NCBI GenBank assembly: GCA_905221605.1
Contig: CAJNDS010001591.1
Location: forward strand, 308,040 to 372,039
Length of the DNA: 64,000 bases
Origin: Symbiodinium natans
Lineage: Eukaryota > Sar > Dinophyceae > Suessiales > Symbiodiniaceae
Direction: 5' to 3'
Each line of letters starts with the position of its first letter. Positions within the stretch are counted from its first letter, which is position 1. Below are positions 1 through 14,292 of this stretch, piece after piece. The translations under genes were made by a program, and so were the position numbers. A model generated the notes under the pieces. That model searched no databases. It was given only the letters and a program-made list of their open reading frames with translations, and was not told where the DNA came from.

Positions 1-537
1 ATCGGAATTATAGTTGTATTGGGTTCTATGACCCAAATCTTGGGGTTCACGTGGTCCCCAAGGTATTAAGTGTCCTGCATGAGACAACATCCCTATGCAA
101 AAAAAAGTGTCCTTGTTCAAGATGCAGCCCACGTTCTCGATGTCGGACACTTGGGGGCTTCGACCTGTACGGACCCGTTTAGAGTTTTTGACCCATGTGG
201 GGGTTTTACGCTATTAGACAATTAGGGGTACCTTATTGGGGTCCTTATAATAAGGAGGTCCTACCATTAGGGGGTCTATATATCGGGCGGTCCTCGTAAA
301 CCCCCCATGTCATCGTCGTTTATCCCATGTTGTGCAGGGTCTCGGTGCTGGGGCTTCAAGCAGGCGAAGCACAGGATCCGAAGTCAGGTGCTGCAGACCT
401 GGTTTAGGGTTTAGGGTTTAGGGTTTAGGGTCGGACCACGCCCAAACAAGCATGTGCCTGAGGCATGTGGCAGTGTGCAGAAAGGGTGGCCCTAAACCCT
501 ACCTAAACCCTAAACCCTAAACCCTAAACCCTAATCC
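1..537. other. Region downstream of rlmN
   Basis: Holds the right part of a family B element (1-64), a family A element (194-310) and telomere-type blocks at 402-431 (TTTAGGG) and 490-545 (CCCTAAA). No convincing exon was found here. Confidence 0.6.
194..310. mobile_element. Family A inverted-repeat element
   Basis: Starts CATGTGGGGGTTTTACG and ends CGTAAACCCCCCATGT. The interior reads GGGGTACCTTATTGGGGTCC then a TAAGGA..TCCTA segment, shared by all copies. It is about 100 bp, non-coding and MITE-like. Confidence 0.8.
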
Positions 538-619
538 CTAAACCCACGGGCCTTCCAGCTTTGCCAGCTGGCCGCAGGCAGCCGCAATGTCACGGCCATG
601 ATGCCGCCTCTCGAAGACC
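538..619 (-). CDS. rlmN: rlmN exon 23 (last)
   Basis: Reads RVFERRHHGRDIAAACGQLA then KLEGPWV and TAG. AACGQL carries the second mechanistic Cys (Cys355 of E. coli RlmN). The stop lies in the first unit of the flanking telomere block (GTTTAGGG). A GTGGGT just before could also be a donor to a short further exon. Confidence 0.9.
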
Positions 620-3600
620 CTGCCAGACACACATGGCATCCCAAATGTGAAGTAGGGTTTAGGGTTTAGGGTTTGGGGTTTAGGGTTTGGGCTGTAGGGT
701 ATACGAATCAAGATATGAAGAAGGGTTTACATTTCTTGTATCCCCAACAGGCCACCAAGTATATACACTCACCAATATTAAAGAGGAACCTTATATACAC
801 TCACTAATAACAGTAATATATACCCTGCTTCACATGGCATTAGGCATGTTTCGCTCATCGATAAACCCTTCATCACTCCGCTATGAACCCTTCATCACGC
901 CCAACCCTGCGAACCCTTAGTCGCCCCGACCCCTGCACACCAAAAACACCGTGTAGCACAGACCCTAAACCCGAAAAACCCTAAAACCCCTACCCCTAAA
1001 CCCTAAACCCTAAACCCTAAACCTTTTGCCATGGGCCCGTCCTGATGTCGCTCTCGGCAAGAATCTGCAGAAACTCATCCACCGCCTTCGGGGAGGGCTC
1101 TTCGTAAGCGTAGGCGTTGCCTGCCCAAGAGTGAGCCCAAAACCCTAAACCCGAAACCCTAAACCCTAACCCCTATGCTCCGAAGAGCTTCGGAAGGGAA
1201 CTGGGGGCCAACGTGGAAACGTTCGGAAAGATATACACATAAATAGAACTAAAAATGTAGATAAATGAATACATATCTATATGTATGATAGATGAATAAA
1301 GACATGTACATACATGAGGCAATCTTTAACGCACTGTACTGGGATCTCGTCGGGTCCGCAGTTTTCCCACCAAAGTGCATGCGACAGAAATAGAGCTTCT
1401 AATGGGAGACTCCTGCTTTAGGGTTTAGGGTTTGGGTTTTCGGGTTTAGCAATGATGCAAGCAAGCTGTGAGTAGCTGCAAGCAGGCAGGGAATGGCGTT
1501 GCCACCGGTTCAAGAGAGACCAAGAGACCATGCGGGAATTGGGCACAGGACCTGAAGAACTTCAATTCTACGTGTATGCAAGTCCAAGTTCTCAGGCACG
1601 CAATCGCATGCCGCCTGCGAACAAAGCCGGCCTTCGAACGCATTGTATGGGATCAAGTTCACCTGATCGACATCTGGATGCAGGGTTTAGGCTTTACCTA
1701 AAGACATGTTACACCATTGCCCTTTGATAAGTTTCGGCCTATTTGTTGACATACTCGGTCCCGCAAGTTAAGCGATCTGCCGATGTTTTCCAGCCAGCAC
1801 CTTAAGCCAAGCATCGATAACGGGCCGGCCCGCCAGCAGTGCTGCCAGCTCAGCAGCATGTGCGGGCGAATCATTCACGCCCTTAGGTCGAAGAGACACT
1901 TTTCGAGTGCGGGAAATGGCTATGCAAAACTGTTCAAGGCTCAGTGGTTTCTCTTGCATCAGCTCTTCTCACCCCATGCTAAACAGCGCAGGTGCCTTCA
2001 GCAACACGTAAGACATCATGACGCTTCGCTGCCGCTTCCCTTCCTCGGCACTCATCAGGCCAATGCTTGCAGACTTGGGCCCAAGAATCCACAAAAACAT
2101 AAGGATCCTATGAAGCATGATTCTCCAGAACCCCCCTTCTAGGGCCCTTATACCCCAAGAGTAGGATCCTATTTGTGTTTATGTGGCGTTTGGGCCCCTA
2201 AAGATTGCAGTGTACGACTCTGATCTCTACAGGAAGGTCGCCTCGTCCCAGTGCAGTACATGCCACCTGCGTAGCAACCCTGTAGTGTCTAACCCCCAAA
2301 CCCCAACACCCTAAACCCTACAACCCTACAACCCTAAACCCTAAACCCTAAACCCTGAACCCTAAACGCTTCTTATCGAGCAGACGGAGGCCAGAGACTC
2401 TTCTACACCGGGTTCCTTTGCCGGGCGGCTCGCTGTCCCATCATGGCAACGTGGTGATCCACGATGCGCAGCAGTCGGTCGATCGGAATCGCCTGCGCCC
2501 TAAACCCTAAACCCTAAACCCTAAACCCTAAACCCTAAACCCTAAACCCTAAACCCTAAACCCTAAACCCTAAACCCTAAACCCTAAGCCTCCCCAGAAT
2601 CGTCTTCACCGACCTCGTTGGCCAGCAAGCAATCCAGAAGTCTGCAACGATGCCATCCAGCAATAGCCCGGGGACTAAACTAGCCCTAAACGATTCATGT
2701 TCCATGTACCCTATTGGGGGTTTAGGGTTTAGGGTTTGGGGTTTAGGGTTTAGAAGGTACCCAAACAGGAATTCTAGTAGGATTTATAGGCCCAAACAGG
2801 GATTCCAGTAGTATAGGGCACAGGATAACGCTAAGATGCAAACTCTCATTGTCTTGCCCACGCCGTCGGACCATTCGCGTTTCTTTCCCGACATCAGCGC
2901 AATAATTTGGCAATGTCTAAACACACTGGGTATACCGTCGTAGCGGTATGCCCCTTCCTTGGGGACGAAATGAACCCCAAAATTGGGTCCTATACACTGA
3001 CTACTATAACTCCTATTAAGGTATATGAACCCTAAACCCTTTTCGGGTTCATTTCGTCCCCAAGGTTATGGAACCCAAAGCACAAGATCATCCATATTAT
3101 AGGGACCCAAAGACAGGCACCCCAACTTTAACTACGACACCGGAAGCCCTCAACCCTTCCGTGGGGCCAGATGAGCCTCAAACGGTTTATGGTCCGTATA
3201 CCTCAATATGCATTACAGCATCATAGGGTGTGTGATCTCAACTTTGGGGGGCTCATAAACCCTCAGACACTCAAAGCTTTGACTCTAAACCCTAAACCCT
3301 AAACCCTGAACCCTAAACTCTTCTTTTTTTCGCGTCCCGTCGCTGAAAGCGTGGCCTTGGCCGAGGGCACCAACTCCTCGCGGAGCCGCTGGTTTGGCGC
3401 GTGGAGGCTGACCTCGGATTGTAGGGTTTAGGGGTTCAGGGGTTTAGGGTTTAGGGGTTTGGGGTTTAGGGTTTCTGGCTTTAGGGGTTTATGGGTTCAG
3501 GGGTTTAGGGTTCAGGGTTTCTGGCTTTAGAGCTTTAGGGTTGTAGGGTTTAGGGTGAGGGTTTTAGGGAGGGTTTGGTTGAGGGTCTAAGGGCTAGGGT

Positions 3601-4238
3601 TTAGGGTTTAGGGTTAGGTGCCCTAAACCCTAAACCCTAAATGCTACACCCTAAACCCTCAACCCTAAACCCTATACCGTGGCGCTCGATGCTGAAGTCG
3701 GATCCCCATGCCATAACCCTATAAGGCCAAAAGCCGAAAAACAAAACAAAAACCCCTAAGCCCTAAACCCAGTTAACCCAAAAAAACGTAAACTCCAAAA
3801 GCCCCCCAGCAAAAGCTACCCTGAACCCCTAAAGCCTACAACCTAACCCCTGAACCCTAAACCCTCTAGACCATAAAATCCCTGTAATCCTAAAAAACCC
3901 CTAAAACACCCTATAAACCCTTTTAACCCTATAAACCCTACAAACCCTACAAACCCTATAAACCCTGTAAACCCTATAATCCCTCTAAGCCCTATAAGCC
4001 CTACAAACCCGATACACCCCAAAATTCGCGCTGTTTAGGTCGGCCGCTCCCTGGTCTCTAGGTTTAGGGTTTATAGGGTTTAGGGTTTAGGGTTTAGGGT
4101 TTAGGGTTTAGGGTTTAGGGTTTAGGGTTTAGGGTTTAGGGTTTAGGGTTCGGGTTTAGGGTTTAGGGTTTAGGCCAAGCATCGGCGAGGCGTACCTTGG
4201 GCAGCTCCTGCCAGATGCTGAGGCGAGGGTGGGGGGGT

Positions 4239-4277
<39 letters not shown>

Positions 4278-7200
4278 TGGGGTTCAAGTTGGGTTTAGTG
4301 ATTAGGGTTTGGGATATAGGGCTTGGGGTTTAGGGTTTGGGGTCTAGCGGGTTCAAGGCTTAGCTGAAACTGTCGAATTGCAACCCCGATCACCGCATGT
4401 TGCATGTACTAAGTTCGCACAAAGGACCTAAACCCCAGAAAGCCGGCTAGAGCCCGATACGCCCTAACAACCCTACAAACCGAACAAACCCTGTACAAAA
4501 ACATATATATATATATATATTTTATACATAAACCCTGTAAACCCAAAACCCGGAGATTTGTAGGATATAACCTAAATATATGGCAAAAAACCCAAAATAG
4601 TAGGTAAATGCTATACTCCCCTTAGAAACTTATTAAAAATAGCATTTTTCACATGCTCTTGGGTTTTACATAAACAAAAGCTGTTAAAAACAAACCCCAA
4701 GGGGGCTATAGAATGGTGCCCGTTCAAGCTTGGTGGTGGTCCTCCAGCAAGCGCTGCATGTTGTGCGGCGACGAGCCCACCGTGGAGATAGTTCTGAGCA
4801 GACGCACAGGTTTACAGAGGGTTTAGGGTTTAGGGTTTAGGGTTTTGGGTTTAGGGATTAGGGTTTAGAGAGGGTAGCGGAAGTGTATACTGGCGAAGGG
4901 AGCCTCTATCTTGCGCAGTGTGCTCTTCTGCCTCAGAAAAGGAGCCTTGCTTCCAGAACTAGGGCTATGTCATGACATGAACTGGCCGACTCCGAAACAC
5001 AAGACTCTCGGACAGGCCTGATTCCTATACTGAGACTAGCCTAAACCGATGGAAGACTGAGTTGCAAGCTACAGTTCTCAACCACAAAAATCCCATGACA
5101 CCGCAGGTAGGATGAAGTGGCGTAGCTGTCACCCTGCCAGCTCTTTAACAATACCTTCTTATGTTGATGGTTTTTGGTAACTCTTTCCTTCCCTTCTCCC
5201 TCTTTTGATCGTTGTCTCTGATTTGTCTATGATCTTCTAAACCCTATTGCTGCTGCTGTTGTGGCGCTATTGGGGGACCGAATATGAGGCAGCCATCCCC
5301 CCCCCCCCCCGCCTTTGTCCGATTTAGTAGGATATAGGGTGTAGGGTTGATTAGCGCATGCAAATTTTACCCCACATTGACCCTAAACCCGAAACCCTAA
5401 ACAGCCACAATATCAAGATTCTTTTGCAGCCAGGGAACATGCTGCTTGGCGCCAGTCCAAAACGAACAGGGTCGACAAAGCCTGTCGCAAGAGAAAGCAC
5501 CGAGCACCTGAATAACATAGGGGCCTTAGGCGTAGGGTTTAGGGTTTAGGGCTGCTATAGGGGTCTTAATAACTAGAACAGGGCTTTGGGGGTTATTGAA
5601 GTATATCGATCAAGGCACCCTAAGGGAATACTATTGGTCATTTTTCCGACCTCTATAATACACGCCGCAGTACGCATGCTCCTGGAGAGAATGCCCACCA
5701 GAACTGAAACCCCAATGGGCGTTGTTTACAAAAATCGTGAAAGCTAAAGACGCTCGAAACCTCGCGGACGCTGATGTTGCTTCCTTGGACTCTATTTACC
5801 GACAGATTAGTAGTAACTATCCTTCACTAGCAGGTATAACCCGTAAAACGTAGGTAAAGAGGGTGCCAGATTGCCCTTCTACAGATAGAACGCGTTGGGG
5901 AGCCCCGATTGTGTATTCTGAACGGGACATGCGAGATGAGAAGACGACCTTGTATAGGAGTGTAAACTTACCCTTGACCCTCGTTACCTACAGTCTTATG
6001 GGTTATGCCTATGAACCAAAGGTAGCTACCACTGAACTGTAGGTAAATAGAGTTTCAGGTAGGGTCCTCACGATGCAGGACTGGGTTGGCCTTAAAACCC
6101 TTGCTAAATAACCCTAATCCCTAAACCTAAACCCGAAACCTTAACCCTAAACCCTAAACCCTACACCCTAAACACTATGAATGAGCGCCTTTCACAGCGG
6201 ACGCAACAGCATCGAAGTTCTCCAACGGCTCGCCTGGCCGTGTGGGGCAACCCTAAACCCGAAACCCTAAACCCTGAACCCTAAACCCTAAACCCAAAAC
6301 CCTCAACCCCCGCAAACCCTACAAACCCTGTAATTATATCAACCCTGCGACAAGCCCTAAAGTCCAAAACCCTATTCATTCAAGCCCTGAACCCTAAACC
6401 CTAAACCCTAAGCAACTAACCCCTACACCCTAAACCCTATAAACCCTAAAGCCTAAAGCCTAAACCCTAAACCCTGAACCCTGAACCCTGAACCCTAAAC
6501 CCTACTCGTCCTTTCCGGCCAGGAGGCCCATCCCCATGAAGACAACGTTGCAGATCGACGAGGAGTGGCCCTGGTCGCGAAAGCAGCTTTCATCGAGAGA
6601 GGGGGTGGGTTCGGGTTTAGGGTTTAGTTTTTAGGGTTTAGGGGCTAGGGTTTAGGGTTTAGGGGTTAGAGTGTCTGTAAGTTGTTTTGTTTTTGGGGGG
6701 GTTCTGTTTAGGGCTCTATAGGGTGTTAGGGTTTCGGGTTGTAGGGCCCCGGGCTTCTGAGGGTATTCGGGCTTCTTGGGTGTTGAGGGTTTAGGCGTCC
6801 CTTTTTTGGGGGGCTCCTATGAGAAAAATACACAGCCTTCAGGATAGACGGGCCGGGCCGCAAACGGGACCATAGTCGTTAAACCCTGGACCCCTCATTT
6901 AGAGATTTGCCCAGTTGCTTGCTTAAGAACCCCCCCCCAAAAAAAAAGAAAAGAAATAATAATGATCCCTATATTGCCCTAATGAGGAGTTTTTTTTTTT
7001 TTTTTTTTTTTGGGGGGGGGGGGGGGGGGGGCTCTAGTTCTTGTGCACCAGTAGTCCGTCGCAAAGTTCAGCTCACGAGTCGGCCGTTCAAGTGCTTTGC
7101 AACCGCAGTCGCCCAAACGAGCCATTTGGGCATTTCCCAACTAGCCCCTGCATGTACCCCAAAATGCTCGAATTCGTATTCTAGGAGCCCCAAAATAGGC

Positions 7201-10200
7201 ACCCCTAGTTTTCGGAAACCCCGCAAACATTCGGCTGAATAGCATCCCAGGACTGCGCGCCCAAAGCCACCGGAAGTTCCAAAGGCAATACTGGCGTTTG
7301 GACTTGCAACATCTTCGAACCTTGAAACGTGCACTCGAACCCAAAACCCTCAACCCTCAACCCTAAACCCTAAATCCTAAACCCCAAACCCTAAACCTTT
7401 AAACCCTGAACCCTAAACCCTAAATCCTGAACCCTACATCCCCGTTCCTTAAATCCACCACTGGCCTTCTGCAGCCGAGCCAGGATGAGCTGCTCCTGGA
7501 TTTCCTCGAGTGAGAAGTGAGGAGATTATAGGGTTTAGGGTTTAGGGTTTAGGGTTTAGGGTTTGGGGCTTAGGGTTTAGGGTTTAGGGTTTCGGGTTTC
7601 GGGTTCAGGGTTTAGGGTTTTTCAAAGGAAAGGGACATAACCCAAGGTTCCCAGGGCTCCCTAAGCTTCCCTCAGGTCCCCTAGGTACCCATGAAGACCC
7701 CTCCCTTAAGAACCCTTTGAGGAGGAGGAATCGAACTGGGTCCTGCTATACTTTAAAGACCCCTTAAGAGCCTAACGCCCTAAGCCCACTGAAAAACGCA
7801 TGAAGCCGAAGACACTGAACCCTAAGCCCTAAACCTTAGACCCTAAACCCTAAACCCTAAACGCCTGCTTGCCACTCAGTAGCACCCGGCCATAGGTTGC
7901 CAAGCAAGCCCATGGTGCCTTCCGCACACTTGCAGGGGATCTGCGAGGACAAATAGGCAGGTTTCCCAAGACGGGGTTTAGGGTTTAGGGTTTAGGGTTT
8001 AGGGTTTAGGGTTTAGGGTTTAGGGTTTAGGGAACGGGGGTGCCCCGAATGGACACCCGGAATGTGGTCGCCCTTGTGAGAGGAACCTCAAGAAAGGTAC
8101 ACATGTCTTGGAATCCCGTATACACCCAAGAGCAACCTAGGATTGAAAAGGGTACCCTTTTAAGGGAAGCTAGACCCCAAAAAGGGGAATAAGGGCCTAT
8201 TCTGGGTCCTAGCCCTAAACCCTAAACCCTAAGCCCAAAACCCTAAACCTGTGAGCCTATGATATGGATCTAATCAGCGGGGGATACGGTGCACGAAGGC
8301 GCCTGTCGCACAGAATGTGCATCCCAGTCGGCAACCAACCTGTCGGGAAATGGCGATATGTCGATTAGGGTTTAGGGTTTAGGGTTTAGGGTTTTAGGGT
8401 TTTAGGGTTTAGGGTTTAGGGTTTAGGGTTTAGGGTTTAGGGTTTAGGGTTTAGGGTTTAGGGTTTAGGGTTTAGGGTTTAGGGTTTAGGGTTTAGGGTT
8501 TAGGGTTAGGTTTAGGGTTTAGGGTTTAGGGTTTAGGGTTTAGGGTTTAGGGTTTAGGGTTTAGGGTTTAGGGTTTAGGGTTTAGGGTTTAGGGTTTAGG
8601 GTTTAGGGTTAGGGGTCGTGTTGCAGTCTGACATCCGATCAACACCTGCCAGGTTCATCGGGGACCTCTTGAATTAATTACCCGCGGACTCGCAGTTCCA
8701 GCGGCCTGTGAAGAGACGCAGAGCGTGTCCCGCTCGCCTCAGTTTTTGGGGTTTAGGGTTTAGGGTTTAGGGTTTGGGGTCTAGGGTCTACGGAGGGTTT
8801 GGGAGCTTAGGAGGAGGGTTTGGGGCCGTTACAGGCTTACAGAGTTGTAAGACTGCCAAGCCCTGCAAAGCTGCGTTACGCCCTCAAGACGCTGAGTGAC
8901 CCTAAACCCTAAACCCTACGACCCCTGCTGTCCCATCGCAGGTGTTTGGGCCAAAGGGCCGCACCGATCAGCCTGCCGTTGTTCAGGATGCTCAGCCTGA
9001 CCGATTCTTCGTGGTAGCCCAAATAGCCAGGTTTAGGGTTTAGGGTTTAGGGCTTAGGGTTTAGGGTACCCTTTCATACCCTAAATAGAATAGAATCCCC
9101 TTGAAGGGACCTCCCAAAATGGGGGTCCGTATATGGGGATCCTATTTGAGGATCAATTTTAAGGTCGCCTACCAAGCTAATTAGGGGTTTTACCTGGCCT
9201 TTTTAAACGATCGTTAAGGGAATGCAAGGGCCAAATTCGGAATAGATTGAGGGGAACCTTTAGGGGTACAGCCTTAGGGGTACGAGCCTTAATCCCTTGA
9301 TTTTCTTGGTAGGCCAATAACCATGTTATACTAAGGGTACCCTTTCTTGAGTTGGTTACTTTGTATTTATAAGGCAACCTTGAACCAAAAAAGAGAAGGT
9401 ACCACTGGGCTGCCAAGTTTTAGGAGGGTTTAGGGTTTAGGGTTTGGGGTTTAGGGCTTAGGGTTCAGGATTTTCGGTTTTGGGATGAACATAGGAAAAT
9501 GGGAGAGCATCCTGCAGTACAACCTCGACATTGGAGTTGTTTCTTGCGGCCCTCCTTCCTTATTCTTCCCCTAAGGCTCTAAGGCCTCCCTTGTTTTTTG
9601 GGTTTTTGGGCCCAAAGGCCTAAGGGTTAAACCCTAAACAGTAAACCCTAAACCCTAAACCCTAAACCCTAAACCCTAAACCCTAAACCCTAAACCCCAC
9701 AATACTATCAAGGGGCCTCACCCGTGTGGTGGATGACCACGGCCTCGACTTCGTTCCCGTCCTCTGCAGAACTCGGAGCATGGCACCGACATGGGGGTGT
9801 TTTGAGGGGGTTCAGGGTTTAGGGTTTAGGGTTTAGGTTTAGGGTTTAGGGTTTAGGGTTTAGGGTTTAGGGTTTAGGGTTTAGGGTTTAGGGTTTAGGG
9901 TACCTTGTTGGGTCCTTATTTGAAGGGAAATCCTACTATTCCGGGGTCTTCTGTAGGGGTCCCCTATGTTCGTACACCACCACATCGAGAAATCGAAGCC
10001 AGGGTCTTGCGGGGAGATTCGAGCTTCGCGATCCTTCAAACCTTAAACCTCATATAACCTATTTATTTCTAAAAAAAAATAATATGCCCTGTATACGTTT
10101 TTTATGACCTCCTATACCCTCATGTACCCCATACCACCCCAAACACACCCTCAAACCCCTGTCCTGAAGCTGGATCAGCAGCTTCATGGTGCCATCGACC

Positions 10201-12508
10201 TCCGAGACACTCGTTCGGATCACCTTCGAGGTCACCACCTGAGTTTAGGGTTTAGGGTTTAGGGTTTAGGGTTTAGGGTTTAGGGTTTAGGGTTTAGGGA
10301 CAGCACAGCTTGCAACAGCCGGGCGGTTTAGGGGTTTGGGGTATTTGTACCTACAGAATAGTAGCCACTACTCTTAATTAGTAGGTATAACCCCTAAAGC
10401 TGTAGGTAAAGAGGGTCGCAGGTACCAGGTAAGGGTTTGGGGTTTAGGGTTTAGGGCCCTAAACCCTAAACCCTAAACCCTCAACCCTAAACCCCCAGCG
10501 CACCGTGAACTCCTCCGCCAGGGCCATGCGGATACGCTGCGGAAGGCCAGGCACCTCGCTGCCACGTCGATGGAGGTCTGTGGAGTTGCGTTGCTCATCA
10601 AGGAAACCCTAAAGTTGGGGGTCATTTCCCCTGACTAGGTTTAGGGTTTAGGGTTTAGGGTTTAGGGTTTAGGGTTTAGGGTTTAGGGTTTAGGACTACT
10701 ACAGCATAAGTACAATTCCTATTAAGGTGTATGAACCCTTAACACTGTTGGGGTTTCACTTAGTCCCAATAAATAAGGGAGGCCCAGGAGAGCCAAAGCC
10801 ACAAGCACCCACAAAGGAGGGGGCCTCGTCTAGGCGAGGCCAGGCAGCGTTGGCGGCATGGGGCGGTTGCGCCAGAACGTGCCTGTGAAAGAGCTGCCCG
10901 AAACCCTTAAATCCTTGAGCCTCTTCACCTGCAGTTTTATGGGTTATGCCTATGAATTAAAGGGTAGTTGCCACTAAACTGTAGGATAATGGAGTCCCGG
11001 GAAAACCCTCAACACAAAACCCGAAACCCTAAAACCCTAAGCCCCAAGCCCGAAATACCCCAAGTAGGTGGTAAGCCAAGCTAATCCAGCCAAAGCAGCT
11101 TCCAGATCCGTGCCATATGCACCTCAAGAAAAGCAGACGATGGCATGGCAGCAAGGGGGGCTCTGGGTCTGCGATGTAGGGTTTCAGGAGGGCACAAGGT
11201 TTGCGTGGGACTCTATCTACCTACAGTTTAGTCGTAGCCACCCTTAATCTGTAGGTCGAACCCACACAAAACTGCAGGCAAAGGGGATCCCTGGTAGGGT
11301 TTTGGGTTTTTAGGGTGCGGTTCGACTCTTCCGACTCCACATGGCCACAGGCTCCGAAACAAACCCTAACTATGCAAGCCCTGAACCTCAAAGGCCCTAA
11401 GCCCTGAACCCTGAACCCTGCCCTCTAAACCCTAAACCCTAAACCCTAAACCCTAAACCCTAAACCCTAAACCCTAAACCCTAAACCCTAAACCCTAAAC
11501 CCTAGACCCTAGACCCTAAACCCTAACCCAGGCACCGTCTTGATGCCGTGGCCCGTCAGGAAGGCGCGCAGCGAGGGTTCGTCAAAGATGGGCTTCGGGT
11601 GCCTCATGTTCTAAGGGCTTAGGGGTTTTGGGGTTCAGGGGTTTAGGGGTTTAGGTGTTTAGGGTTTAGGGTTTAGGGTTTAGGGTTTAGGTGTTTAGGG
11701 TTACATAGGGTTTAGGGGTTTTGGTTTAGAGGTTTAGGGTTGAGGGGTTTAGGAGTTTAGGGTTGAGGGGTTGAGGGGTTTAGGGTACGTAGGGGTTCAG
11801 GGTTAAGGGGTTTAGGGCTTTGTCAACCATGGGCTCCTAGTATGGTCCCTTGTCCTTGTTTAGAGGGATCCGAAGTATGGGCCCTTATTATGTACAGTGT
11901 ATTTAAGGGCAAATGCAGCAACTAAGGGCCTATACTCCGCGCCTTCGACATGTGTCGCGTGCACGCAGAACTCTCTTATCCGTTGGAGACTACGGGGTTT
12001 ACAAGGGCTACTATATAGGGGCTTATATATAGGAGTTGATATCAAGAGAAGTGTAAGGCCTTGAAGGAGTCTTAGAACTTAGGGCTACCCACTACCCTCA
12101 ACCCTGGGCTGGAGGAAGCAACTCCCTAACACCCTATATCTAGGATGGCCCCTAAAACCCCCTGAAAAATATTCCTGAATATGGCCCTCTTAAACCCAAT
12201 AAGGGAAAATATAAAATGTCCCAAGGGCCTACCTAGATATGCACCAGCATTCACGCTCGCCTCCTCTCCCCCGCCCCCCACCCGCACTTGGAGGGGTTTA
12301 AGGTTAGGGTTTGGGGATTTCACCTGGGGGCGGGCGCATATGAAGCCTAAACCCTAAACGCTAAACCCTAAACCCTAAACCCTAAACCCTAAACCCTAAA
12401 CCCTAAACCCTAAACCCTAAACTCGTGGGTGTTCCCTTTGGTTTTGCGGAATCCGGGGCGCAGCTCCCTGCGCCTGGCAACGGGCCCGGTGCTCAGAATC
12501 GGCGCCAT
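538..12508 (-). CDS. rlmN: RlmN-family radical-SAM RNA methyltransferase, 23 exons
   Basis: Twenty-three exons join in frame into 1188 bases (395 residues plus TAG), close to the usual RlmN length. Known for the family: RlmN methylates C2 of adenine in 23S rRNA and some tRNAs using S-adenosylmethionine and a 4Fe-4S cluster. Seen here: an N-terminal helical domain (exons 1-5), TLCVSSQ (exon 8; its Cys matches a conserved mechanistic Cys), CxxxCxxC in VGCRLGCTFC (exon 9), NVVFMGMG-EPL (exons 12-13), ITISTVG (15), VSLHAPNQ (17), GVNDSPAHA (20), VNLIPYN (21) and AACGQL (23; the second mechanistic Cys). Introns run from 114 to 984 bp and carry telomere-type repeats and inverted-repeat elements. 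The basic N-terminus could be an organelle-targeting region (inference). The start Met is the least certain part: an AG at 12493-12492, downstream of a pyrimidine run, could instead be an acceptor for an upstream exon. Confidence 0.93.
1042..1120 (-). CDS. rlmN: rlmN exon 22
   Basis: Reads GNAYAYEEPSPKAVDEFLQI then LAESDI, the C-terminal helix. The donor is GA, with the split Arg codon completed in exon 23. Confidence 0.95.
1632..1662 (-). CDS. rlmN: rlmN exon 21
   Basis: Reads VNLIPYNAFE plus G of a split Gly codon. VNLIPYN is invariant in the family. The donor is GC. Confidence 0.97.
1822..1881 (-). CDS. rlmN: rlmN exon 20
   Basis: Reads GVNDSPAHAAELAALLAGRP, the conserved 'GvNDs..hA..La.ll' helix. 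The donor is GTTATC. Confidence 0.96.
1996..2043 (-). CDS. rlmN: rlmN exon 19
   Basis: Reads EGKRQRSVMMSYVLLK, corresponding to 'R.v..EYvLL'. The donor is GC. The 114-bp intron that follows is the shortest in the gene and holds no telomere repeat. Confidence 0.93.
2451..2492 (-). CDS. rlmN: rlmN exon 18
   Basis: Reads AIPIDRLLRIVDHH, following PSAK as in the family. The donor is GTTGCC. Confidence 0.93.
2498..2588 (-). repeat. CCCTAAA block, ~13 units
   Basis: Near-perfect interstitial telomere-type array in the intron just upstream of rlmN exon 18. Confidence 0.97.
2957..3065. mobile_element. Family B inverted-repeat element
   Basis: Inverted ends CCTTGGGGACGAAATGAACC and GGTTCATTTCGTCCCCAAGG. 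The interior holds ATACACTGACTACTATA and TATTAAGGTATATGAACC. The arms contain AACCC/GGGTT next to telomere-like CCCTAAACCC. Confidence 0.82.
3356..3412 (-). CDS. rlmN: rlmN exon 17
   Basis: Reads VSLHAPNQRLREELVPSAK, nearly the family consensus for this segment. The donor is GC. Confidence 0.96.
3422..3674. repeat. Degenerate TTTAGGG then CCCTAAA blocks
   Basis: Diverged TTTAGGG-like units (3422-3618) meet CCCTAAA units (3621-3674) head to head, beside exon 17 of rlmN. Degenerate AACCCTATAA-type units continue at 3750-4020. Confidence 0.9.
4061..4173 (+). repeat. TTTAGGG block, ~15 units
   Basis: Array ending 10 bases from rlmN exon 16, with one TTCGGG variant. Confidence 0.97.
4184..4207 (-). 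CDS. rlmN: rlmN exon 16 (24-bp micro-exon)
   Basis: Reads ELPKVRLA in eight codons between AG and a GA donor. It joins exon 17 to give LA-VSLHAP, as in the family. Confidence 0.88.
4239..4276 (+). repeat. G38 homopolymer
   Basis: Uninterrupted run of 38 G within the intron before rlmN exon 16. Run length may be an assembly or sequencing approximation. Confidence 0.85.
4611..4711. mobile_element. Family G inverted-repeat element
   Basis: CTATACTCCCCTTAG and CCAAGGGGGCTATAG ends with a CTCTTGGGTTTTACATAAAC interior. A second copy is at 17732-17818. Confidence 0.78.
4730..4793 (-). CDS. rlmN: rlmN exon 15
   Basis: Completes Ile and reads TISTVGSSPHNMQRLLEDHH then Q, the family 'ITvSTvG' strand. 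This is the only acceptor in the gene not followed by G (AG|A). The donor is GC. Confidence 0.93.
5439..5481 (-). CDS. rlmN: rlmN exon 14
   Basis: Reads (G)FVDPVRFGLAPSS plus AT of the next Ile codon. The donor is GTTCCC. Confidence 0.9.
5557..5656. mobile_element. Family F inverted-repeat element
   Basis: ATAGGGGTCTTAATAACTAG with inverted TTTCCGACCTCTAT end. Relatives at 19767-19849 and 43109-43210 share the GGGGTC..TTAATAGCTAGAATAGG start and GGGGGTTATTATAC core. Confidence 0.72.
5788..5863. mobile_element. Family E inverted-repeat element (~75 bp)
   Basis: Ends GACTCTATTTACCGACAG and ACGTAGGTAAAGAGGG; lies in an rlmN intron. Confidence 0.75.
5977..6054. mobile_element. Family E element
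   Basis: Ends ACCCTCGTTACCTACAGT and ACTGTAGGTAAATAGAG; interior GGGTTATGCCTATGAAC is shared with other copies. Confidence 0.8.
6189..6233 (-). CDS. rlmN: rlmN exon 13
   Basis: Reads (G)EPLENFDAVASAVK, continuing GMG-EPL.N.DAV exactly in phase. The donor is GC. Confidence 0.96.
6528..6570 (-). CDS. rlmN: rlmN exon 12
   Basis: Reads GHSSSICNVVFMGM plus the first base of Gly. NVVFMGMG is a hallmark of RlmN and Cfr proteins. The donor is GC. Confidence 0.96.
6930..7031. mobile_element. Family I element with Cn-An / Tn-Gn ends
   Basis: C9-A9 at the left and T22-G20 at the right form inverted homopolymer ends around AATGATCCCTATATTGCCC. Relatives are at 29935-30005 (C6-A5 end) and 63894-63968 (C12-A22 and T5CT5-G6). 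Confidence 0.68.
7466..7504 (-). CDS. rlmN: rlmN exon 11
   Basis: Reads EIQEQLILARLQK, the family 'EI.EQ' helix. The donor is GC. Confidence 0.93.
7878..7918 (-). CDS. rlmN: rlmN exon 10
   Basis: Reads (G)TMGLLGNLWPGAT, the family 'G.~GL.GNL..GEI' region. The donor is GA (GAGTGG). Confidence 0.93.
7976..8034 (+). repeat. TTTAGGG block
   Basis: About eight perfect units in the intron before rlmN exon 10. Confidence 0.96.
8303..8339 (-). CDS. rlmN: rlmN exon 9 (4Fe-4S cluster loop)
   Basis: Reads VGCRLGCTFCAT, carrying the radical-SAM CxxxCxxC motif with all three Cys in one 37-bp exon. The donor is GC, and the trailing G completes Gly with exon 10. Confidence 0.97.
8364..8611 (+). repeat. 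TTTAGGG block, ~35 units (longest)
   Basis: The longest telomere-type array of the window, almost perfect with two TTTTAGGG units and one TTAGG slip. It lies in the intron between rlmN exons 8 and 9. Confidence 0.97.
8706..8737 (-). CDS. rlmN: rlmN exon 8
   Basis: Reads (G)ERDTLCVSSQ, the strictly conserved segment just before the cluster loop. Its Cys corresponds to the mechanistic Cys118 of E. coli RlmN. The donor is GC. Confidence 0.95.
9637..9697 (-). repeat. CCCTAAA block
   Basis: About eight units directly after rlmN exon 7 on the coding strand. Partner of the TTTAGGG block at 9808-9899 on the other side of the exon. Confidence 0.95.
9722..9761 (-). CDS. rlmN: rlmN exon 7
   Basis: Reads DGNEVEAVVIHHT, matching the family 'DG..VE.V.I'. 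The donor is GTGAGG, and the exon ends with the first base of a split Gly codon. Confidence 0.94.
9808..9899 (+). repeat. TTTAGGG block
   Basis: About 13 units; it abuts and replaces the left half of a family A element at TTAGGG|TACC. Confidence 0.95.
9899..9985. mobile_element. Family A right part
   Basis: Begins at GGGTACCTT immediately after a TTTAGGG block and ends TTCGTACACCACCACAT. Confidence 0.7.
10164..10238 (-). CDS. rlmN: rlmN exon 6
   Basis: Reads VVTSKVIRTSVSEVDGTMKL then LIQLQ, the RlmN 'S.DGT.K.L..L' strand pair. The donor is GA (GACAGG), which repeats the first bases of exon 7, a feature typical of dinoflagellate introns. Confidence 0.94.
10344..10415. mobile_element. Family E element
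   Basis: TTTGTACCTACAG and CTGTAGGTAAAGAGGG ends; rlmN intron. Confidence 0.75.
10504..10554 (-). CDS. rlmN: rlmN exon 5
   Basis: Reads VPGLPQRIRMALAEEFT, the family segment 'LPKALRE.L.E.F'. The donor GTGCGC follows directly. Confidence 0.93.
10813..10882 (-). CDS. rlmN: rlmN exon 4
   Basis: Reads HVLAQPPHAANAAWPRLDEA then PSF in the only frame that joins exons 3 and 5. The donor is GTGGGT. Confidence 0.88.
10920..10994. mobile_element. Family E element
   Basis: CCTCTTCACCTGCAGTTTTA and TAAACTGTAGGATAATGGAG; rlmN intron 3. Confidence 0.78.
11091..11122 (-). CDS. rlmN: rlmN exon 3
   Basis: Reads VHMARIWKLLW, matching the 'RAKQI..W' helix of RlmN. The donor is GC. The final Trp codon is split with exon 4 (TG + G). 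Confidence 0.9.
11207..11291. mobile_element. Family E element
   Basis: GGGACTCTATCTACCTACAG and ACTGCAGGCAAAGGGGATCC ends; rlmN intron 2. Confidence 0.75.
11414..11525 (-). repeat. CCCTAAA block
   Basis: About 15 units starting 10 bases inside the intron that follows rlmN exon 2. Confidence 0.96.
11536..11602 (-). CDS. rlmN: rlmN exon 2
   Basis: Reads EHPKPIFDEPSLRAFLTGHG then IKT, the start of the RlmN N-terminal helical domain. The acceptor is AG|G and the donor GT. It completes the Glu codon split after exon 1. Confidence 0.9.
12138..12237. mobile_element. Family H element
   Basis: Shares CCTGAAAAATATTCCTGAATATGGCC-like start and AATAAGGGAAAATATAAAATG then TCCCAAGGGCCTACCTAG with 40745-40860 and 54180-54300. 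Confidence 0.65.
12342..12422 (-). repeat. CCCTAAA block
   Basis: About 11 units; on the coding strand the first unit is the GTTTAGGG donor of rlmN exon 1. Confidence 0.96.
12423..12508 (-). CDS. rlmN: rlmN exon 1
   Basis: Starts at ATG (12508-12506) and reads MAPILSTGPVARRRELRPGF onwards, rich in Arg/Lys. It ends with two bases of a split Glu codon. The donor is GTTTAGGG, so the intron opens directly with a telomere unit. Confidence 0.75.
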
Positions 12509-12560
12509 GCCGGCAAGGGGAAAAATGAGAGAACGAAAGAAACGCGGGATCCGCCTCTTG

Positions 12561-12648
12561 GGTTCAGGGTTTAGGGTTTAGGGTTTAGGGTTTAGGGTTT
12601 AGGGTTTAGGGTTTAGGGTTTAGGGTTTAGGGTTTAGGGTTTAGGGTT
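12561..12648 (+). repeat. TTTAGGG block
   Basis: About 12 units upstream of the rlmN start. Confidence 0.96.
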
Positions 12649-14292
12649 TGTTCAGGGCTTCGGGGTTGCTAGCTAGAGGTTTAGGGTTTTGTAGGGTTTA
12701 GGGCCTAGGGCTTCGGGCTTCTCAGTTACAAGGGGCCTTAAGGGCTTTACAGGGTTCATAGGCTGTTGATGGGGCTTATGGGGTTTACAGTTTAAAGGGT
12801 GCAGGCGGCTGATAGGGTTTTGTAGGGTGCAGGGTTAACCTAGAGACGCCAGGAACGCTGGATGTTTTCGTATACAGGGATGCTATTGTCATAGCATCAT
12901 ACAATCATATAGTGCATACTAGTTATACTAACATTGCAGCAACACATGATGCATGATGACATGTTCGCTTCTTTTGTGTGCGAGCATGTGGTGCACGAAG
13001 TTGCGCTCATGAGACGATGTAAGAGGCTGGTAAGGCTCAAGTGCAAACGCTTCTAGCCAAACATCTGCGGCGAAAAGGCTTGCTCGAAGGACTTGGCACA
13101 TCTTGCCCCCTAAAACCCTAAGCCCTAAACAGAACACAGCTGGACACGGCACCAGAACTGTCCACCAAAACTCTCAATGTCCATATGATCCATATGCAGC
13201 ATAACAGGTTGCGGTAACCTTGCTCAGAATCGGTGACCAAAATCTGGCGGAACAAGCTTGTGACACGCTTGAGGTGACAGAGGACGGGTGAGCCGAGCGT
13301 CTTGGACGAATTTCGGACTCGACGACATGTGAAGGTGGCCGACACTGCGACGGTTTGCAGACCATCGTCCGGGATGCCTGGACTTAAAGAGTGCAGAGTC
13401 CACGGTATGGTACTGTAACTTGATTACAGTTCCTTGCAACCCAGGCACACACGGAACGATGGCCTTGAGAACACAGGCTGCGTTCTCAGAAGGCAGAATA
13501 GATGCGTAGAAAGTGGCGCCGAGTCGTTCGTGGCTGGTGCGTATCTGTGTTTAGGGTTTAGGGTTTAGGGGGACGGGCAGGATCGTTGAGGTTCATGAAT
13601 CCCGCTTGTGGCGTCAGGTGGACGACAGCCGCTGGATGAGGACAAAATATCCAATATCATCCCTGAACCCTGAACCCTGAACCCTAAACCCTCTTGGAAG
13701 TCGGAGTTTGGGTCCGGAACATCGCGTGGCTCGCGAATAGCACATGACACTTAGGGTTGAGGGCTTCGGGCTTAGGGCAAGCTGTCGCCAAACTCCGAAA
13801 TGACCCCACACTCTCTCGGCTCCATCCCACTGTCAAGTCAATATGTAGTGTTTAGAAAAGAAGGGGAAACCTGCAGCCTTCTGTACAATTCACCATGCCT
13901 GAAATTCATGAGTCCACGTCAATGTAGTGTGTCCGACCGTTCATTGCGAAATGAAAGCCGCTCCGCTATCCTGGCAGCCTGGCCAACCTGAATGCTCATG
14001 TGCATTGCACCACGACGGAATACAGACCTCTTTTGCGTGGTCTGTAGTATAGAGGTATTGGACGTTTAGAACCCCTCAAGGGTTTGTAGGCCATTGCCAA
14101 GATTCACCAACAACCTATTTGATCCCTAAAAATCCTGTAAGGGGGCTTTTCGCAAGCGAAAAAGTAGTTTCTGAGTTCCCCAAACCCTAAACCCTAAACC
14201 CTGAAACCTGAACCCTGAACCCTGAACCCTAAACCCTAAACCCTAAACCCTAAACCCTAAACCCTAAACCCTAAACCCTAAAAGGCGGCAAC

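Follow-up and report, generated by a model that had tools for sequence, protein, structure and literature searches.

The window analyzed here is a 64-kb stretch of the Symbiodinium natans genome (C1591:308040-372039; the assembly holds 759.4 Mb in 2543 contigs), and exact rotations of the TTTAGGG/CCCTAAA unit, which the available text of PMC11453091 gives as the telomere unit of dinoflagellates, make up one fifth of it (21.0%), in 234 telomere blocks (exact 7-mers). Near one end of the window lies a sequence coding for an RlmN-like protein. Scans of the window for tRNAs and for Rfam families gave no matches. Ab initio gene finding fused the minus strand into a single prediction of 7637 residues, which was discarded and served to indicate the coding strand only. 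A Pfam radical-SAM search of the organism's own genome returned 10 matches, none of them on the RlmN contig, probably because the exons there are too short.

The gene model was built with a custom spliced aligner and a profile of 21 related proteins (two of them with a dinoflagellate name); since the aligner rewards GT, GC and GA donors and AG acceptors, the splice-site counts given below are biased to these. On the minus strand of positions 1-14000 it gave 25 exons of 23-79 nt, amounting to 1209 nt in one continuous frame with no in-frame stop, with a score of 1202.4. Control scores were 183.1 on the plus strand, 187.7 and 182.4 on two other minus-strand stretches, 208.5 for the reversed sequence and 210.6 for one 2-mer shuffle, so that, at the level of the sequence, a co-linear RlmN-like coding region in micro-exons is confirmed far above chance. 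The original prediction had described a whole RlmN gene of 23 exons of 24-86 bp, joined in a single frame of 1188 bases (exactly 396 codons). An RlmN-like gene in a single frame is indeed present, on the minus strand, unlike in that prediction, and with the exon number, exon sizes and length reported above; it is incomplete, as it runs past the window start. The proposed start at 12508 agrees with the MAPI start of the relatives P0121 and P0002 (the profile base P0005 differs), and the proposed end at 538 came too early, with exon 24 ending at 552 and another exon at 164-112. In the following list, exons 2-8, 11-18 and 21-23 come from the spliced protein alignment, and exons 9, 10 and 24 from this and an alignment to PDB chains.

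12462..12508, minus strand: exon 1, with the ATG at 12508 (MAPIL...); start matches P0121 and P0002, base P0005 gives another first exon
11536..11602, minus strand: exon 2
11100..11122, minus strand: exon 3, 23 nt
10825..10882, minus strand: exon 4
10504..10554, minus strand: exon 5
10164..10238, minus strand: exon 6
9717..9761, minus strand: exon 7
8960..8996, minus strand: exon 8
8706..8737, minus strand: exon 9, with RDTLCVSSQ and the presumed first mechanistic cysteine
8303..8339, minus strand: exon 10, with GCRLGCTFCAT, the radical-SAM cysteine cluster
7884..7918, minus strand: exon 11
7466..7504, minus strand: exon 12; base P0005 puts the low end at 7454
6528..6570, minus strand: exon 13
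6189..6233, minus strand: exon 14
5439..5481, minus strand: exon 15
4742..4793, minus strand: exon 16
4184..4207, minus strand: exon 17, 24 nt
3356..3412, minus strand: exon 18
2446..2492, minus strand: exon 19; low end uncertain (2436-2446), as alignments differ on the donor
1996..2050, minus strand: exon 20; high end uncertain (2043-2053), as alignments differ on the acceptor
1816..1881, minus strand: exon 21
1632..1662, minus strand: exon 22
1042..1120, minus strand: exon 23
552..619, minus strand: exon 24, with AACGQL and the presumed second mechanistic cysteine
112..164, minus strand: exon 25, VSDIENVGCILNK, absent from the original prediction; the gene goes on beyond window position 1

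The borders of exons 2-18 and 21-24, exon 12 excepted, are identical with the profile bases P0005 and P0002, and base P0018 spans exons 6-25 only. The bases disagree at the first exon, exon 12 and the border of exons 19 and 20, and a difference of 3 nt affects the last exon, whose low end fell at 109 in the first alignment and at 112 (a GA donor) once the next exon was included. The C-terminal tail lies outside the window, where the weakly supported candidates are an exon at -325 to -341 (L009:9099-9115, minus strand) and one that may encode a transmembrane segment, around -746 to -810; further C-terminal exons were rejected as forced alignment, apart from the first and perhaps the transmembrane one.

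The joined protein of 404 residues is 85.3% identical to EukProt P0121 over 408 columns (BLASTP, 5 gap openings, lying in the first exon, in exon 4, at the border of exons 19 and 20 and in the last exons) and, for residues 100-404, 89.6% identical to P0018 from Symbiodinium pilosum over 307 columns with one gap; the named relatives among its matches are S. pilosum, Polarella glacialis and Durusdinium trenchii, which supports a dinoflagellate origin. Such high identity without a stop or frameshift argues for a gene under selection. The dinoflagellate proteins P0018 and P0121 have the same motifs and a common DIEN-GC-LNKD segment, and the start is common to P0121 (P0018 is without this part), in a comparison of proteins only in which the C-terminal tail of the present gene lies beyond the window. 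TIGR00048 was the best of 11 NCBIfam matches (E 1.7e-81, 273.9 bits; CfrAB 229.2), though below its curated cut-off of 290, and Radical_SAM (PF04055) reached 45.9 bits, above the Pfam cut-off of 29.5; with the matching RlmN chains of the PDB, the identification as RlmN is supported. The CxxxCxxC cluster (GCRLGCTFCATG) aligns to PDB 6fz6, an RlmN chain, and DTLCVSSQ and AACGQL align with its TTVCVSCQ and AACGQL, so that the cysteine cluster and both of the predicted mechanistic cysteines, which we take to be those in LCVSSQ and AACGQL, are all present. RlmN methylates C2 of A2503 of 23S rRNA and of A37 of tRNA, and this is the predicted reaction here. The RlmN family itself is ordinary.

On the minus strand of L009, two peptides, ALLPCLRPSRLERATKLAY at about 3991-4077 and AVAAETRPEDEVWAELAE at about 2517-2640 (window positions -5449 and -6923), match the C-terminal part of P0121. 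P0121 extends past RlmN; conservation thus seems to include the downstream neighbor, and two genes may have been fused in the gene model of this relative.

The 24 donors comprise 15 GC, 5 GA and 3 GT sites and one that is unresolved, which agrees with the expectation that many would not be GT (the aligner favors these three), and all 24 acceptors are AG, 22 of them AG|G (AG again being favored). Non-GT donors are known from Symbiodiniaceae, for which the available text of PMC11453091 gives GC/GA-AG fractions of 25-74%. As judged from sites placed by protein alignment, then, 23 of the 24 donors and all of the acceptors are of the kind seen in dinoflagellate spliceosomal introns, and the frame is intact. 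The locus appears to hold an intact nuclear gene for an RlmN-type radical-SAM methyltransferase, from a dinoflagellate resembling Symbiodinium, and no fewer than 24 spliceosomal introns divide it; the gene and the order of its exons stand in the DNA, and the splicing is what we infer from them. Telomere DNA is unexpected within genes, and the telomere segments might instead be assembly errors or be removed from the DNA rather than from the RNA. We regard this as extremely improbable, as nearly all junctions carry AG acceptors and GC, GA or GT donors (sites favored by the aligner), the exons are co-linear over 12 kb, and the same pattern is found on other contigs.

The most unusual feature of the locus, absent from the original prediction, is the oriented telomere repeats beside the splice sites, with (TTTAGGG)n near the 5' ends of introns (G-type) and (CCCTAAA)n near their 3' ends (C-type). 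Telomere blocks occur in 23 of the 24 RlmN introns, the exception being intron 20 (114 nt). At any distance, the first block is G-type in 19 of 23 introns and the last block C-type in 17 of 23. Where the first block lies within 60 nt of the donor it is G-type in 16 of 17 cases (p 0.0003), and where the last block lies within 60 nt of the acceptor it is C-type in 16 of 21 (p 0.027); the middle blocks number 23 G and 21 C. Seen from the exons, 13 of the 23 inner ones (exons 2-24, hand count) have a C-type block as the nearest before them and a G-type block as the nearest after them. Literature titles and opening lines, a coverage that takes in few subscription papers, gave none on oriented telomere repeats in introns, and none of the terms telomer, TTTAGGG and introner occurs in the body text of the paper on the S. 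natans genome.

Three kinesin genes in telomere-rich surroundings, modeled with a profile of eight single-frame kinesins of the same genome, show the same arrangement. Their models reach scores of 107, 163 and 138, whereas the opposite strand or the reversed sequence gives 33-43; many of the exons are weak when taken singly. Within 60 nt, their first block is G-type in 13 of 15 cases and their last block C-type in 11 of 12, with 29 G and 37 C in the middle. For RlmN and the kinesins as a set of four genes (46 introns, 3 without a block), the corresponding values are 29 of 32, 27 of 33, and 52 G and 58 C; over all distances the first block is G-type in 33 of 43 introns (p 0.0006) and the last C-type in 32 of 43 (p 0.0019). 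A strict filter, requiring an exon support of at least 20 and consensus sites, leaves 21 of the 46 introns (20 of RlmN and 1 of the kinesins), with the first block G-type in 15 of 16 and the last C-type in 15 of 19. The polarity belongs to the surroundings of the splice sites and is lost inside the intron.

Blocks were defined by 10-mers with one mismatch in the intron analyses and in folding, by 9-mers with one mismatch around kinesin exon hits, by exact 7-mers in the counts of islands, gaps and stretches, and by exact 14-mers in the junction count. Two short aligned exons of L059, of which one has a TAG acceptor and a CC donor, are not part of the four-gene set, and this set keeps 4 introns with donors other than GT, GC or GA and 1 with a non-AG acceptor. 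L032, L033 and L045, which overlap L059-L061, were left out of the junction and shared-position counts and kept in the count of short exon hits, which for these three is not independent of the four-gene set.

The two ends of an intron seem to be independent of each other. Naming each intron by its first and last block (n = 43), we found GC in 23, GG in 10, CC in 9 and CG in 1, with no association between the ends (Fisher p 0.41), and this apparent independence speaks against both obligatory hairpins and linked healed breaks. According to the first of these, base pairing of the two arms within the pre-mRNA would draw the splice sites close to each other, a mechanism proposed for the introner elements of the dinoflagellate Amoebophrya. 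The 23 introns with a G-type first and a C-type last block would suit it, many RlmN introns form long duplexes of G-arm and C-arm in silico, and hairpin-forming introns with non-canonical sites are described for Amoebophrya in the available text of Farhat et al. (2021, PMC7789003), a likeness in inverted repeats near the intron ends and in non-GT sites. The Amoebophrya repeats, as that text describes them, are varied and 8-20 nt long, with direct repeats of 3-5 nt at the borders and no clear splice signature, whereas the introns of the RlmN type have long telomere arrays inside their ends, AG acceptors and unassociated ends. The predicted end-to-end distance is also close to that of shuffled introns (median 12 vs. 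15.5, one letter shuffle each). In folding that covered 22 of the 23 intron-exon-intron segments of RlmN, moreover, arm pairs across the exon exceed those within either intron in 10 of the 22 segments (exons 2, 4, 5, 7 and 10-15), which would oppose splicing, and we consider hairpins distinctly improbable as the explanation. From such cross-exon pairing in silico one would expect circular RNAs made of single exons, or else a requirement for helicases.

According to the second, telomerase would have capped both ends of double-strand breaks within introns, which were then joined with filler, each exon being left as CCCTAAA-exon-TTTAGGG, in the manner of a minute capped chromosome. This is the strongest rival to the reading that we prefer. 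At both ends, the repeats are oriented as they would be if telomeres had been added to every fragment that carries an exon. RlmN introns 5 and 17 contain direct head-to-head junctions, that of intron 5 being:

10440..10475, unstranded: head-to-head TTTAGGG/CCCTAAA junction of RlmN intron 5, at 10457, with no filler

Telomerase-linked insertion at breaks is also documented in mammals, in the available text of Nergadze et al. (2007, PMC2246262), where the interstitial telomeric sequences resemble ours in being internal telomere repeats with a telomere-free counterpart; the loci reported there number 79-250 per genome, in contrast to the 234 blocks with a splice-site polarity in one 64-kb window here. 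The geometry fits very well, yet both arms of a healed break should arise together, and the linked arms expected are not seen, with the same type at both ends in 19 of 43 introns. Direct junctions of the head-to-head type are roughly as infrequent as those of the reverse type (2 vs. 1 in 319 kb), too infrequent to decide, and on the whole we consider healed breaks unlikely.

The arrangement extends beyond these genes. Twenty 10-kb stretches at round coordinates, chosen rather than random, were taken from ten further contigs and the RlmN contig (three of them with masked bases). Telomere 7-mers make up 5.7% of these stretches on average (median 1.9%), with at least 5% in 8 of the 20 and less than 1.2% in 10, and the genome in L011-L030 looks like an alternating mosaic of telomere-rich and telomere-poor parts. 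Gaps of 90-160 nt account for 32 of 52 C-to-G gaps in the 20 stretches, against 8 of 53 G-to-C, 12 of 43 C-to-C and 7 of 36 G-to-G gaps, and in the window for 49 of 70 C-to-G against 11 of 71 G-to-C gaps. Islands of 80-200 nt between a C-type and a G-type block have a GC fraction of 0.583 vs. 0.527-0.536 in the other kinds and an openness of 0.977 vs. 0.898-0.918, and repeats within the set account for 5.3% of their bases vs. 9.7-12.4%. Islands that have CCCTAAA at the left and TTTAGGG at the right are coding-like, in the window as in the sampled stretches, and the original prediction's description of the DNA as apparently gene-free is not supported. In the 400 nt on either side of 20 short kinesin exon hits (7 loci without a block), blocks within 110 nt are C-type on the left in 5 of 5 cases and G-type on the right in 6 of 9 (C-type in 3 of 9), three of the loci belonging to the three kinesin genes. 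The arrangement would provide a simple, strand-free mark of exons for finding hidden genes, namely a C-repeat on the left and a G-repeat on the right with a gap often of 90-160 nt.

On the minus strand of window positions 13000-63800 and of L009-L010 there are further islands between C-repeats and G-repeats with coding-like peptides, probably a gene cluster in one direction; 33 of 110 islands score better on the plus strand. By eye, WW-domain-like peptides are seen near 15.1-15.4 kb and a TGASSGIG motif, as in short-chain dehydrogenases, toward L010.

The sizes of the introns bear on how the repeats came to be there. Among kinesin introns with consensus sites (15 of 54 lack them and are left out of the length and acceptor counts), the 20 that are telomere-free measure 57-324 nt (median about 92) and the 19 with blocks 216-2538 nt. 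The stubs, that is the distances from splice site to nearest block summed over both ends, have medians of 58 nt in RlmN, 79 nt in the four genes and 120.5 nt in the kinesins, and in RlmN and the four genes they are together about as long as one whole short intron. Kinesin introns share a position in 5 cases, of which 2 have consensus sites in both genes and a contrast in content, the other three being uninformative or without consensus sites. At profile position 91 (phase 1) an intron of 63 nt free of telomere repeats (L031) stands against one of 352 nt with arrays (L037), and at position 258 (phase 0) one of 57 nt (L048) against one of 451 nt (L061); as these introns are in paralogues, a loss of telomere DNA instead of a gain is possible. 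The stub sizes and the same-position introns are most simply read as the result of an insertion of arrays and repeat filler into the interior of short introns, which would make the introns older than the telomere DNA that they contain.

These sizes also bear on a third explanation, by which the introns would be copies of transposons whose terminal inverted repeats (TIRs) are telomere-like. Introners with TIRs and 4-bp duplications are reported from Symbiodinium microadriaticum, of the same genus, in the available text of Gozashti et al. (2022, PMC9860276), and the intron cores here have a repeat family in common. The insertions described there create new introns, whereas the arrays here appear to enlarge existing ones. 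The arms lie inside the intron ends and not at their termini (medians of 38 and 24 nt from the ends in the four genes), the stubs vary between introns (by eye), and the two positions just described have introns with and without arms; an origin as introners is, in our view, very improbable.

By eye, similar short sequences with CTACAGTTTAGTGG-like and CTGTAGGTA-like ends recur in intron cores (10911-11002, 5716-6108 and 11186-11293), and one blast cluster takes in 95 islands of the window and loci. A pure long G run lies inside intron 16 (about 4231-4276), and a T-then-G run inside intron 12 (about 6990-7031).

What the repeats may do at the splice sites is indicated by the acceptors. TAG is found at none of the 45 AG acceptors of the four genes, and among kinesin introns at 2 of the 20 that are telomere-free and 1 of the 19 that bear telomere repeats (the doubtful L059 exon left out of the four-gene set), so that an avoidance of TAG is only suggestive. 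In RlmN intron 18, six TAG|GG sites within the last 45 nt are skipped, the nearest of which would break the frame (by inspection). The CCCTAAA repeat, for its part, covers 42 of the last 45 nt in intron 4 of kinesin L060 and nearly as much in RlmN intron 5:

10241..10300, minus strand: 3' end of RlmN intron 5, with CCCTAAA repeat covering 41 of the final 45 nt up to the acceptor
2497..2590, minus strand: 3' end of RlmN intron 18, with TTTAGGG repeat up to 4 nt before the acceptor CAG; its own TAG|GG sites are skipped

With such coverage, the repeat would contain any branch site and tract placed at their usual distance, and CUAA is similar to the core of the consensus for branch sites in general.

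The account that we prefer is an invasion of short old introns by telomere repeats, followed by a filter on repeat orientation that operates at each splice site, probably at the RNA level; we hold this account to be evenly balanced between right and wrong. Introns of roughly 60-100 nt would have been enlarged in the middle by (TTTAGGG)n and (CCCTAAA)n arrays and repeat-element filler, with the stubs left at both ends keeping the splice signals. Arrays near splice sites would survive mainly one way round, with the G-strand in the RNA after the donor and the C-strand before the acceptor, and elsewhere be neutral. Ahead of an acceptor, TTTAG|GG would present false acceptors, and CCCUAAA repeats could act as branch site and tract. 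Intronic GGG runs have an enhancing role, and those after the donor may serve as enhancers, which is the weakest step. A filter acting on the RNA at each splice site would explain why there is a polarity, why it decays with distance and why the two ends are not associated. TTTAGGG also offers GT and should thus be disfavored after a donor, which counts against the filter, and the TTTAGGG arrays directly before the acceptors of RlmN introns 13, 18 and 22 mean that the filter is not absolute. The larger stub sum of the kinesins, the weakness of many of their exons and the three C-type blocks among the nine to the right of kinesin exon hits also count against the account.

A further and more tentative possibility is that the telomere repeats are now working parts of the genes, most micro-exons being bracketed by CCCTAAA before and TTTAGGG after, the C-repeat providing branch site and tract and the G-repeat a donor-side enhancer, with acceptors moved off TAG to keep the arrays from being taken for splice sites. 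If invasion and filtering at the splice sites is correct, telomeric DNA would have colonized introns while leaving the genes intact, its direction being set by the splice sites. Part of the reason why these algae have such odd exon-intron structures and missed gene models might then be clear, and there would be a natural test of splicing tolerance. It would also raise the question of how the cell keeps telomere proteins, telomerase and recombination off so many internal telomere tracts.
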